Below, piece by piece: positions 17,788 to 62,111 of a stretch of 64,000 nt of DNA. Below the pieces are notes generated by a model, which saw only the letters and a list, made by a program, of their open reading frames with translations, was not told where the DNA came from and did not search any database. Source of the stretch: Akkermansia muciniphila (GTDB lineage: Bacteria > Verrucomicrobiota > Verrucomicrobiia > Limisphaerales > BJHT01); the NCBI GenBank assembly GCA_945861535.1, contig CAMAUZ010000003.1, forward strand, positions 62,001-126,000. The letters run 5' to 3'. The position numbers and the translations under genes were made by a program. Each line of letters opens with the position of its first letter. The stretch's first letter is position 1.

Positions 17788-17915
17788 GGCGAGGAATGTG
17801 AGCACGGGGGTGAGACGGGCGGCAATTTGCGGGGAATTCAGCGGGATTACAGAAACGGGCGTTCGGTCGCGGTTCGGGCCGGAGACTGGCGCTCCGGCTA
17901 ACCCGGAACTGGAAT

Positions 17916-17995
17916 GGTAGGGCGCGTCTGTCCTCAGCGCGCCGCTTGGGCATTCTTACGGTTCAGCGGCGCGCTGGGGACAGACGCGCCCTACC
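17916..17995. repeat. Inverted-repeat element E1
   Basis: This 80-bp element begins GGTAGGGCGCGTCTGTCC and ends GGACAGACGCGCCCTACC. The arms of about 30 bp are separated by an unconserved loop. Copies E2 (51541-51618) and E3 (57855-57933) are alike. Confidence 0.85.
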
Positions 17996-26082: not shown

Positions 26083-26152
26083 GTAGCCACCGACGTGAGG
26101 AGGCGGTTTCCGGATACTCGGCGAGTTCTCCCCGCCTCGTCACCTCGACGGC
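26083..26152. repeat. Inverted-repeat element G1
   Basis: The element begins GTAGCCACCGACGTGAGGAG and ends in CCGCCTCGTCACCTCGACGGC-like sequence, a degenerate copy of the G family. Better copies are at 36174 and 62036. A half copy of K follows at 26193-26224. Confidence 0.7.
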
Positions 26153-33904: not shown

Positions 33905-36900
33905 ATGTCTTTCTGGACCCTCATCCTCCGCAGCCTCCGCCACCATGCACGCGAGCATTTCGGCGTGCTGCTTGGCGCGACGGTCGGCAGCGCCGTGCTC
34001 ATCGGTGCGCTGCTCGTCGGCGACTCCGTGCGCGGCAGCCTGCGCGACATGGCGCTCAAACGCCTCGGCCCCATCGACACCGCCCTGACCTCCGGCGACC
34101 GCCTCTTCCGCGCCGATCTCGCCACTGATCCCCGCCTCGCCGCCGCGCCTGTCCTCGCGCTCCCCGGCACCGCCAACTCGAGTGATGGCACGCACCGCGC
34201 CAATCGCGTCCATATTTACGGCGTCGCGGAAACCTTCTGGAAACTGGCGCACCCAATCCCTTCCGCGACCGAGACCGAGACCAACGGCGTCATCTTGAAT
34301 CAGCCCCTCGCCGAACAGCTCGCCGCCAAAGTCGGCGATGAAGTTCTCCTCCGCGTGACCAAAGTCTCTGCGCTGTCGCAAGAAGTCTCGCTCACCCCTC
34401 GCGACGGCCAAACCACCGTGCTACGCCTTCCCGTCATCCGTATCCAGCCTTCCTACCGTCTCGGCAACTTCAGTCTCCAAGCCAATCAGATCGCGCCGTT
34501 CAACGCCTTCGTAAATCTTGCCCTGCTTCAGGAGCGCGCCGGGGCCACCGGCCGCGCGAACCTGATGCTGCGTGGACAACCTCCAAGCGCTCCAAATGTC
34601 ACCTACATTGCCAACACCGCCTTGCCGCAAATCTGGAAGCTCGCCGACACCCAGCTCGAACTGCGCCCGGTTCCATCCGCGACAAACACCAACGGGCAGG
34701 TAGAATTCCTCCACGATTCCTACCCCGAGCACCTCCTTGATCCGACACTCTTTTGGAAACGGGTCGGTGACCAGATGCAATGGCGTACAGATGCCATGTA
34801 TCCGTGGGGTATTTCTTTTGCCGGCCTGAGCCCACGCAATCTGCAAGAATACTTCCTTGAGCCCTCCTTGCTGTGGGGCCGTGTAGGTGCGCTTCTGGAT
34901 CCATCCCGTAATTTCGGGGGCAATCTGTGGATTTCGTTCATTGATGGCACTCAACTCGGGGTCCGAATCCGATCGACGCCTGCTTCCACCCAGCCCCAGC
35001 TCGAACTCCGCACCCCCCGCATCTTCCTCGACCCGCCCGCCGTCCACGCCGCGCTCGCCGTGGACACCAACGCGCGGCCCGTCCTCACCTTCCTCGTCAA
35101 TCTCCTCCGTGCCGGCGAACGCACCACGCCCTACTCGATGGTCACCGCCGCCACCGCCCCGCTCGTGCCCGCCGATTTGCGCGATGACGAAATCGTCCTC
35201 AGCCAATGGCTCGCGGACGACCTGAAGATCGGCCCCGGCGCGGAGGTGGCGCTCACTTATTTTCTGCCCGACTCCGGCGCGCGATTGCTCGAGGCGACCA
35301 ATCGTTTCCGCGTCCGCTCCATCGTGCCGCTGGAACTGCCGTGGGCCGACCGCACGCTCATGCCCGATTTCCCCGGCATCGCCCAGGCCGAGCGCGCGGG
35401 CGACTGGGACGCCGGCTTCCCGCTCGCGCACAAGATTCGCAAAGAAGACGACGAATACTGGGCCAAATGGCGCGGCACCCCGAAGGCCTTCGTGACGCTG
35501 AACGCCGGGAGGAAAATGTGGGCCAATCGGTTTGGGGACACGACGGGCGTTCGCTTTTCGATGCCCACGAGTGGAACCAACGCCGCGCCGGGCCAAGGCG
35601 AAAAGTTAGAGTCTCCTAACGTCGTCTCCTACCAGGCGGGACTGGAGCAACGGCTGCTCGCACAGCTCAAGCCCGCGGACTTCGGCCTGACGTTTCAGCC
35701 CGTGCGGGCGCAGGCGCTCGCGGCGAGTTCGCAGGGACAGGACTTTGGCGGACTCTTCATCGGTTTCAGCTTCTTCCTGATCATTGCGGCGTGCGTGCTG
35801 GTGGCGCTGCTCTTCCAGTTCGGCATCGAACAACGCGCGCAGGAAATCGGCACATTGCTCGCGCTCGGCTTCACGCCGCCGCAGGTGCGGCGCCTCCTGC
35901 TCGGCGAAGGCGCGGGACTGGCGCTGCTCGGCGCGTTGCTCGGTGCGGCGGGCGCGGTCTGGTATGCGCGCGCCATGTTGCACGCGCTCTCGACCGTGTG
36001 GCGCGACGCCGTCGGCACGAGCGACCTGTATTTCCACGCCGAGCCGGCGACGCTCGCGGGCGGCATCATCGGCAGCGTCCTCGTCGCCGTCTTCACCCTC
36101 TGGCTCGCCCTGCGCAAACAAGTCCAACGCCCCGCCCGCGAACTCCTCGCCGGTGGCGGAGAAGAGCATGACGGTAGCCGCCGACATGAGGAGGCGGAGC
36201 GCGGAACGTCCGGGGCCGTCCGCCTCCTCACGTCGGCGGCTACAAGCGGCGGCCGCGCCGCGCTCCTCGGTCTCGCGAGCCTCGTCTGCGGCCTCGGCCT
36301 CGTCGGCTACGCTCTCGTCACGGCGCAAACTTCTGCCGCCGGTCTTTTCTTCGGCGCGGGCGCGCTGCTGCTGATCGCGGCGCTCGCGTTCACCTCGGCC
36401 CTGCTCTCCCGCCTCGAATGCTCTGCCACCGCCGCGCGCCTCACGCTCGCGGGCATGGGCCTGCGCAGCGCCACGCGCCGTCGCCGCCGCAGCCTCGCCA
36501 CGGTCGCGATGCTCGCGTGCGGGAGTTTTCTGATCGTGAGCATTGGCGCATTTCGCCTCGATGAAAACGTGAACGCGACCCAGCGCTCCTCCGGCACCGG
36601 CGGCTTTGCCTTCCTCGGCGAAAGCACGCTCCCCGTCACCGCCGACCTCAACACCGTACGCGGCCGCGAATCCCTCGGCCTCGCCGCCACCGCGCTCACC
36701 AACGTCAGCGTCGTCCCCCTCCGCCTCCGCGACGGCGATGACGCGAGCTGTCTGAATCTCAACCGTGCGCAAAAGCCGCGCCTGCTTGGCGTGAAACCCG
36801 AGCTGCTCGCCGAGCGCGGCGCGTTCAATTTCGCCAGCGTCGCGAAGGGATTGTCGAAAGAGAAACCGTGGCTGCTGTTGTCGGCTCCAACCGCTTCCGG

Positions 36901-37642
36901 TGCGAACGCCCCAGCCGCCAGCAACGAAATCCCCGGCATCGCCGACGAAGCCTCGATCCTCTGGGCGCTCGGCAAAAAACTCGGTGACACGCTCGATTTC
37001 ACCGACGAACGCGGCCAGGCCTTCCGCGTCCGGCTCGTCGCCGCGCTCGCGAACTCGGTCCTTCAAGGCAACATCGTCATCGCCGAAGACGCCTTCACCG
37101 CGCGCTTCCCCGGCGAGAGCGGCCACCGCTTTTTCCTCGTGGACGCCCCGCCCGAGCGCGCATCCGACGCAGCCGCGCAACTCACCCGCGCCTTGCGCGA
37201 CAGCGGCCTCGAACTCACGCCCGCCACGCGCCGCCTCGCCCAGTTCAACGCCGTGCAAAACACCTACCTCGGCACTTTTCAAATCCTCGGCGGCCTCGGC
37301 CTGCTGCTCGGCAGCGTCGGCCTCGGCGTGGTGGTGCTGCGCAACGTCCTCGAGCGCCGTGGCGAGCTGGCCCTGCTCCTCGCCGTCGGTTTCCGTCCGC
37401 GCTCGCTCAAATGGCTGCTCGTCAGCGAACACGGCGCGCTGCTGCTCATCGGCCTCGGCGGCGGCGTGGTCGCGGCTGCCGTCGCCGTCCTGCCCGCACT
37501 CATGACCCCGAACACGCCGCTTCCCATTGCGACCCTGAGCCTGACCCTCGGCGGCGTGCTCTTGAACGGCGCGCTCTGGACCCTCGCCGCCACCGCGCTG
37601 GCCTTGCGCGGCAATCTGTTGGATGCTCTGCGTAACAATTGA
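33905..37642 (+). CDS. Giant FtsX/MacB-type permease with in-frame repeat insertions
   Basis: The protein has 1245 residues. It starts MSFWTLILRSLRHHAREHFG with the first membrane helix (VLLGATVGSAVLIGALLVGD). A MacB-type extracytoplasmic domain follows, then three helices at about 610-740 (GGLFIGFSFFLIIAACVLVA), a linker, a second set of helices and another periplasmic domain, and a final group of three helices (LLLGSVGLGVVVLRNVLERR onward). This is the double-FtsX layout of lipoprotein- or exporter-type ABC permeases; the ATPase is not adjacent. Two intergenic repeat types lie in frame within it: a half I element (35605-35632, residues about 567-576) and a full G element (36174-36243, residues about 757-780, encoding RLLTSAATS). 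The segment 34690-34990 is visibly lower in GC than the rest. Confidence 0.85.
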   Translation: MSFWTLILRSLRHHAREHFGVLLGATVGSAVLIGALLVGDSVRGSLRDMALKRLGPIDTALTSGDRLFRADLATDPRLAAAPVLALPGTANSSDGTHRANRVHIYGVAETFWKLAHPIPSATETETNGVILNQPLAEQLAAKVGDEVLLRVTKVSALSQEVSLTPRDGQTTVLRLPVIRIQPSYRLGNFSLQANQIAPFNAFVNLALLQERAGATGRANLMLRGQPPSAPNVTYIANTALPQIWKLADTQLELRPVPSATNTNGQVEFLHDSYPEHLLDPTLFWKRVGDQMQWRTDAMYPWGISFAGLSPRNLQEYFLEPSLLWGRVGALLDPSRNFGGNLWISFIDGTQLGVRIRSTPASTQPQLELRTPRIFLDPPAVHAALAVDTNARPVLTFLVNLLRAGERTTPYSMVTAATAPLVPADLRDDEIVLSQWLADDLKIGPGAEVALTYFLPDSGARLLEATNRFRVRSIVPLELPWADRTLMPDFPGIAQAERAGDWDAGFPLAHKIRKEDDEYWAKWRGTPKAFVTLNAGRKMWANRFGDTTGVRFSMPTSGTNAAPGQGEKLESPNVVSYQAGLEQRLLAQLKPADFGLTFQPVRAQALAASSQGQDFGGLFIGFSFFLIIAACVLVALLFQFGIEQRAQEIGTLLALGFTPPQVRRLLLGEGAGLALLGALLGAAGAVWYARAMLHALSTVWRDAVGTSDLYFHAEPATLAGGIIGSVLVAVFTLWLALRKQVQRPARELLAGGGEEHDGSRRHEEAERGTSGAVRLLTSAATSGGRAALLGLASLVCGLGLVGYALVTAQTSAAGLFFGAGALLLIAALAFTSALLSRLECSATAARLTLAGMGLRSATRRRRRSLATVAMLACGSFLIVSIGAFRLDENVNATQRSSGTGGFAFLGESTLPVTADLNTVRGRESLGLAATALTNVSVVPLRLRDGDDASCLNLNRAQKPRLLGVKPELLAERGAFNFASVAKGLSKEKPWLLLSAPTASGANAPAASNEIPGIADEASILWALGKKLGDTLDFTDERGQAFRVRLVAALANSVLQGNIVIAEDAFTARFPGESGHRFFLVDAPPERASDAAAQLTRALRDSGLELTPATRRLAQFNAVQNTYLGTFQILGGLGLLLGSVGLGVVVLRNVLERRGELALLLAVGFRPRSLKWLLVSEHGALLLIGLGGGVVAAAVAVLPALMTPNTPLPIATLSLTLGGVLLNGALWTLAATALALRGNLLDALRNN
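35601..35632. repeat. Half element I inside the permease gene
   Basis: From 35605 the sequence GTTAGAGTCTCCTAACGTCG plus TCTCCTAC matches one arm of the intergenic I element (reverse complement of 39216-39243) with a single mismatch in 28. It is read in frame as KLESPNVVSY. Confidence 0.8.
36174..36243. repeat. Full element G2 inside the permease gene
   Basis: It starts GTAGCCGCCGACATGAGGAG and ends CCTCCTCACGTCGGCGGCTAC-like. The last 33 bases are identical to those of intergenic G5 (62079-62111). It is read through without a stop and adds about 23 residues to a linker between membrane domains. Confidence 0.88.
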
Positions 37643-39215: not shown

Positions 39216-39307
39216 GTAGGAGACGACGTCAGGAGACTCTAACCTCCTTTTTTCCAACCACGCCTCTCCCGCAGAAAAGGTCAGAGACTCCTGACGTCGT
39301 CTCCTAC
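39216..39307. repeat. Inverted-repeat element I
   Basis: The left arm is GTAGGAGACGACGTCAGGAG followed by ACTCTAACC. The right arm is its inverse, ending CTGACGTCGTCTCCTAC. The arms of about 32 bp are separated by about 30 bp. One arm recurs in frame in the permease gene. Confidence 0.85.
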
Positions 39308-51332: not shown

Positions 51333-51348
51333 GCGCAGCCCGGCATGC

Positions 51349-51370
51349 AGCCGCCGACGTGAGGAGGCGG
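51349..51370. repeat. Half element G3
   Basis: GCAGCCGCCGACGTGAGGAG begins one arm of family G, without its partner. It lies between eno and its terminator. Confidence 0.65.
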
Positions 51371-51420: not shown

Positions 51421-51540
51421 GGCGGGGCCGTGGAGTGCGGGGAGACGGGGAGCCGGCAGAAAAATGAGGGCAGAAAAAGAGGGATGCGGAGTCGCGAGAC
51501 TGGAAGTCCGTTTCGGGAGCTTGGGTGGCGTTGGTGGAGT

Positions 51541-51618
51541 GGTAGGGCGCGCCTGTCCCCAGCGCGCCGCGGGCTGTTCGCACGTCGCGGCGGCGCGCTG
51601 AGGACAGCGCGCCCTACC
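51541..51618. repeat. Inverted-repeat element E2
   Basis: A 78-bp copy of family E with ends GGTAGGGCGCGCCTGTCC and GGACAGCGCGCCCTACC. It lies between eno and the convergent Ig-domain gene. Confidence 0.85.
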
Positions 51619-55219: not shown

Positions 55220-55589
55220 TGTAGCCGCCGACGTGAGGAGGCGGACGCCCTCGCCGGAGCGCCCGATCCGCCTGCCAACGTTCCCCCCCGCCATTTTCGG
55301 TTACGATGGCTCCATGCTGCGCCTTTTTATGGCGCTCGGGTTCTCCTCCTGTCGGCTCTTACGGGGACCGCCTGTGACGCGTTTTCATCCCTGTTCAAAA
55401 GGCCTCCCGCAGATTCAGGGAGGCCAACAGATGAAAGTCCGCCATCTGTGGGCCTCCCTGAATCTGCGGGAGGAATCCGCTGGATCAGCGGCGGGCGGCG
55501 CCTGCCAACGTTCCTCCCGCCATTTTCGGGTACGATGGCCCCATGCTGCGCCGTTTCGGCGCTCGGGTTCTCCTCACCTCGGCGGCTAC
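55220..55589. repeat. Composite: element G4 containing direct repeats and a hairpin
   Basis: Ends are those of family G (GTAGCCGCCGACGTGAGGAG at 55220 and CCTCGGCGGCTAC at 55589). Inside are two direct copies of an 80-bp unit (55269-55348 and 55499-55575, sharing GCCTGCCAACGTTCC, CGCCATTTTCGG and ATGCTGCGCC). Between them is a hairpin with 31-bp arms at 55403-55433 and 55443-55473 (one mismatch, 9-base loop). No gene is supported here. Confidence 0.82.
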
Positions 55590-57758: not shown

Positions 57759-57854
57759 GTGCGACAAGGTGCCGCAAAGCCGGGCGCGGTGAAACTCCAA
57801 TTCCATCGTCCACCGCAGCACGAGTGCGCTTAAGGGTGGTCGAGGCCGGACGGT

Positions 57855-57933
57855 GGTAGGGCGCGTCTGTCCCCAGCGCGCCGGTTGCGCGTTCGCACGT
57901 CCCGCGGCGCGCTGAGGACAGACGCGCCCTACC
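57855..57933. repeat. Inverted-repeat element E3
   Basis: A 79-bp copy of family E with ends GGTAGGGCGCGTCTGTCC and GGACAGACGCGCCCTACC, between dsbD and the Sel1 gene. Confidence 0.85.
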
Positions 57934-61955: not shown

Positions 61956-62111
61956 AACCACGGATGGACACGGATGAACACGGATGGGGACGGGGAGGAG
62001 CGCGGCGTTTACGCCGCAGGGGCGTGGTCGAAATGGTAGCCGCCGAGGTGACGAGGCGGAGGACGGGACGCGCGATTGCGGGGCCGTCCGCCTCCTCACG
62101 TCGGCGGCTAC
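61956..62111. repeat. Repeats between cdsA and dxr, including G5
   Basis: AACCACGGATGGACACGGAT followed by GAACACGGATGGG at about 61958-61989 is a widely seen type of short dispersed repeat. G5 at 62036-62111 is a full G element (GTAGCCGCCGAGGTGACGAG ... CACGTCGGCGGCTAC), the best intergenic match to the copy inside the permease gene. Confidence 0.82.

Follow-up and report, generated by a model that had tools for sequence, protein, structure and literature searches.

The sequence at 35605-35632 (minus strand) of the window, by which the whole stretch of 64,000 nucleotides analysed is meant (G000:C3:62001-126000, from a genome of 7.94 Mb), is very likely a GTAG-type REP arm that landed in a hypervariable linker of an FtsX-like permease and is tolerated there. 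The arm belongs to the GAG-stem subfamily, stands single and is read in frame as KLESPNVVSY.

A single REP arm is read in frame in a permease gene

The permease gene (33905-37642, plus strand) has 1245 codons, and its product of 1245 amino acids matches Pfam FtsX at residues 620-740 with 76 bits; a match to MacB_PCD remained under its cut-off. KLESPNVVSY (residues 567-576) precedes a hydrophobic segment (residues 612-644) that is probably membrane-spanning, and the open reading frame at this place reads ...GEKLESPNVVSYQ... The preliminary description had reported that these bases match one arm of an intergenic element, which it called I, in frame and with one mismatch in 28. This was confirmed by comparing 39216-39243 with the reverse complement of 35605-35632. 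Chance is excluded, as the exact motif of the family (GTAGNNNNNGACGTNAGGA) was found in 287 copies in the 7.94-Mb genome and its reversed-pattern control in 0. The match is extended to about 35601, the start given in the preliminary description, by the tail of the family (TCTAACTTTT in other copies).

Element I itself belongs to the GAG-stem subfamily and is an intergenic dimer of two head-to-head REPs, 92 bp long (39216-39307). It was not seen at the corresponding place of G001, the sole genome of the same genus among the 58 that were searched; this does not amount to a clean empty site, because the surrounding sequence in G001 differs as well. A clean empty site was not seen for the 35605 arm either, G001 carrying another insert and the remoter orthologs being too divergent. 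Only one of the six frames of the 35605 copy is open, and this is the frame in use; the commoner variants of I have three or four open frames out of six and a CCGCC arm has five. Its stem forms four of five pairs, with an A-A mismatch, and nearest-neighbour folding of this arm gave no special hairpin (z 0.17, energy not significant). Being a single arm, it lacks the two inverted REPs of a REPIN.

Misjoins are caused by repeats, and with the genome in 169 contigs a repeat misassembly could be thought to have put the arm into the gene. This is extremely unlikely, since the open reading frame is continuous, conserved sequence is present on either side and a wrong join would need to preserve the frame. 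Besides, an arm of 28-32 bp is shorter than the usual sequencing read.

A hairpin family with covarying stems

Each arm is laid out as GTAG, five bases, GACGTNAGGA and another five bases, the last five being left out in the count of 287. When the variant loop GAGGTNACGA was admitted, the wider motif (GTAGNNNNNGASGTNASGA) was found in 418 copies in the genome (control 0); both searches demanded GTAG, from which some copies deviate. In a sample of 2.06 Mb, at least four of the five stem positions paired in 104 of 109 arms (mean 51.9 and maximum 67 in 500 shuffles), and 21 of the 26 distinct stems paired (shuffled mean 10.6, maximum 17). The same was observed for 163 of 190 arms of other genomes among the matches listed (shuffled mean 93.1, maximum 113). 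Sliding the partner lowered Watson-Crick pairing from 0.84 to 0.16-0.43 in the window's genome and, for the other-genome loci among the matches listed, from 0.80 to 0.20-0.47, where the outermost pair was weak (0.56). Of 116 arms, a set preselected for at least four stem pairs, 75 have C-G and 37 have G-C at positions 3 and 8 of the loop. The covarying stem and the C-G/G-C swap in the loop therefore indicate a hairpin built of GTAG, 5 bp, GA/GA (which may be read as a tandem sheared mismatch), 1 bp and GTNA.

The main stems are CCGCC/GGCGG, GAGTC/GACTC and GAGAC/GACTC. Further stems (CAGCC/GGCTC, GAGAC/GTCTC, GAGCC/GGCTC and CGGCC/GGCCG) appear among at least 115 motif loci of other genomes, mostly from Verrucomicrobia among the 80 listed; single matches in unrelated phyla are included. 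Counting the window's own, 35 of the 58 genomes contain the motif, in as many as 370 copies. The elements end in GTAG, form a stem-loop palindrome with covarying stems and are present in high copy number and mostly outside genes, as befits GTAG-tagged REPs.

Other members in the window, all on the plus strand, are an arm at 26083-26106, whose CCACC/GGCGG stem is paired at four of five positions, and two arms with the CCGCC stem at 51347-51370 (foot GCAG, one mismatch) and 55221-55244. A head-to-head dimer of 76 bp lies at 62036-62111; its left loop, GAGGTGACGA, has the swapped C-G/G-C pair, and its right arm is GACGTGAGGA. Of the 116 arms, 64 are part of head-to-head dimers, which measure at most about 200 bp and most often 176, 76 or 70 bp. 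Dimers of 176 bp that mix the subfamilies by combining a GACGT-type with a GAGGT-type arm were noticed at G000:C2:144525-144700 and C1:211558-211733.

The second element of the permease gene is the same hairpin

The same permease gene contains, also in frame, a 70-bp head-to-head dimer with CCGCC/GGCGG stems at 36174-36243. It is common to the window's genome and G001, in frame and with about 91% DNA identity, and its peptide was seen in 0 of the remaining 28 aligned orthologs. The 35605 arm and this dimer agree in foot, GA/GA mismatch and GTNA loop and differ by changes on both sides of the stem. The gene had been described as holding two unrelated repeat families; this could not be upheld, because the 36174-36243 dimer is built from the same hairpin and differs in its stem, so that the two are stem subfamilies of one family. 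Several seemingly different repeat families of such genomes can be explained in this way as a single hairpin with varying stems.

The permease gene has a third insertion site, an in-frame stretch of about 104 codons (34680-34992, plus strand) that is not a REP and is absent from the 29 orthologs. Its G+C content is 56%, against 66% for the window, and it is single-copy in the genome.

The linker varies in sequence and length

KLESPNVVSY was found in 0 of the 29 orthologs in the alignment around the linker. Between the conserved blocks at residues 541 and 588, the linker measures 14-68 residues in 30 sequences, with 36 in the window's protein and 41 in G001, where it holds a different and partly repetitive insert composed of GACAGG-type and AATCTGAAATTTC-type sequence. 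Pieces of this insert recur two or three times in 0.4 Mb of G001. The length of 31-residue segments was followed along the protein in 28 orthologs, the window's protein and G001 being excluded. Its standard deviation was 7.9 at the 35605 site and 10.4 at the dimer site, the median being 0.37; 12.6% of the segments were as length-variable as the former site and 6.3% as the latter.

The proposal that linkers of this protein tolerate insertions is borne out by these observations and by the use of the sole open frame. Conservation of the peptide in distant orthologs, which would have spoken against it, was not seen among the 29. The 28-32 bp arm may be regarded as a short mobile palindrome, a single strand of which could fold into GTAG, the 5-bp stem, GA/GA, one further pair and the GTNA loop. 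Such GTAG REPs are dispersed between genes, often as head-to-head dimers, and one single arm would have ended up in the FtsX-type permease linker, 5' of the sequence for residues 612-644. Its survival there is explained by the use of the one stop-free frame and by a linker that is bound to no set sequence or length; translation of the arm, in a flexible part of the protein, probably does no harm, and its presence may be neutral. The 70-bp dimer would likewise have been tolerated in another linker of the permease and then inherited by two species.

The intact reading frame, and the keeping of the adjacent dimer in two species, might also be expected if the peptide were functional, i.e. if the REP had been co-opted as a useful linker or if its hairpin regulated the permease mRNA. 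We consider this quite improbable, given that the peptide is missing from the 29 orthologs, that linker length is unconstrained (14-68 residues) and that the sequence in G001 is unrelated. Tolerance of an inserted arm remains the preferred reading, and the permease would then add a further clear example of a protein in which mobile palindromes are tolerated in frame.

REP arms avoid genes

The placement of the arms in coding and non-coding DNA was counted in the 2.06-Mb sample, in which a simple home-made codon-usage caller predicted 1239 genes (80% coding; small genes are missed). Only 11 of 115 arms, poor-motif matches on C10 and C8 excluded, lie at least 60 nt inside a gene, for which 73% of the bases would qualify. 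The intragenic arms represent seven elements in six genes. By subfamily, 1 of 55 GAG-stem arms (the 35605 arm) and 10 of 58 CCG-type arms are intragenic; the difference (Fisher P about 0.008, computed with 10 of 57 CCG-type arms) was given no weight, because arms within a dimer are not independent.

This count does not favour the other suggestion of the preliminary description, that repeats spread preferentially into this gene. A permease locus acting as an insertion hot spot could account for the occurrence of two REP elements and the unrelated 104-codon insert in one gene, and the chance that any gene is shared among the seven intragenic elements is P about 0.03 (1239 genes). However, this value was computed post hoc on one case, the excess that it expresses is weak and the arms strongly avoid genes. 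Besides, both REP sites fall among the most length-variable segments of the protein (the top 13% and 6%), so that tolerance suffices and no hot spot is needed; we regard the latter as very unlikely.

No REP-flanked RAYT at the transposase loci searched

Mobilisation of the arms would be expected from an HUH/Y1 enzyme acting in trans. The loci of 39 Y1 genes (9 of 9 in the window's genome and 30 of 72 matches from ten relatives) were searched with up to two mismatches, and no RAYT flanked by the GTAG REP, as in a REPtron, was found. There was no match at 36 of these loci, two had matches unlike the REPs (L292 and L293) and one showed a degenerate arm near L313, outside that gene's own flanking repeats. 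Seven of the nine Y1 transposase genes of the window's genome (L031-L039) are flanked by other palindromic repeats that recur at least eight times in the sample; several REP systems thus seem to exist side by side in this genome. The long RAYT of L035 was rejected as the mobiliser on the basis of co-occurrence: four genomes with near relatives of it (G008, G013, G037 and G055) have zero copies of the motif, and G001, with 370 copies, has only weak matches to L035.

It is conceivable, though we hold it to be rather doubtful, that there is one Verrucomicrobia-wide REP family in which a common scaffold (GTAG, tandem GA mismatch, GTNA loop) exchanges its stems by compensatory change and has no linked transposase. 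A single unlinked enzyme would then read the foot, the mismatch and the loop, but not the stem, and would move all subfamilies in trans.

Relation to known repeats

GTAG REPs have been described in the PVC group (Di Nocera et al., 2013; PMC3733652). In the part of that text available to us they resemble the present family in the GTAG foot, the palindrome, the high copy number, the head-to-head dimers, the alternative complementary stems and the rare intragenic copies. According to the same part, intragenic GTAG repeats are most numerous in Opitutus terrae, another verrucomicrobium, whose uvrA gene holds, like the present permease, a single REP and a dimer. An intragenic REP in the permease is ordinary for the phylum and of a kind already published for O. 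terrae. The present loop reads GA-S-GTNA-S-GA, and the family may or may not correspond to one of the 24 published there. Among the papers found on REPs in Verrucomicrobia, only PMC3733652 was relevant by title, and among those found on palindromic sequences of O. terrae no title dealt with REPs.

REPIN/RAYT systems, as presented in the excerpted texts of PMC8266576 and PMC6006769, have head-to-head dimers as well but differ in the RAYT, no copy of which flanked by the present REP was found at the 39 Y1 loci. The excerpt of PMC8266576 shows the stem of Escherichia coli REPs, imperfect palindromes, to be broken by a two-base mismatch too. The Rickettsia palindromic elements, in the available part of PMC3733652, are similar to the present case as palindromic repeats in frame in protein genes; RPE-4 and RPE-6 of R. 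conorii are counted there as CGTC repeats, not GTAG.

Some arms have their pairing stem replaced by GAGAACCCGAGCGCC-like sequence (G000:C16:38563-38594, C30:21937-21968 and C18:80710-80741). Arms trailed in this manner occur with both stem types, as if joined to another repeat at the loop. Another GTAG-led repeat, GTAGGGCGCGTCTGT..., is present in the window at 17915-17960, 51540-51585 and 57854-57899, and its first 15 bases occur in 58 copies in the 2.06-Mb sample.
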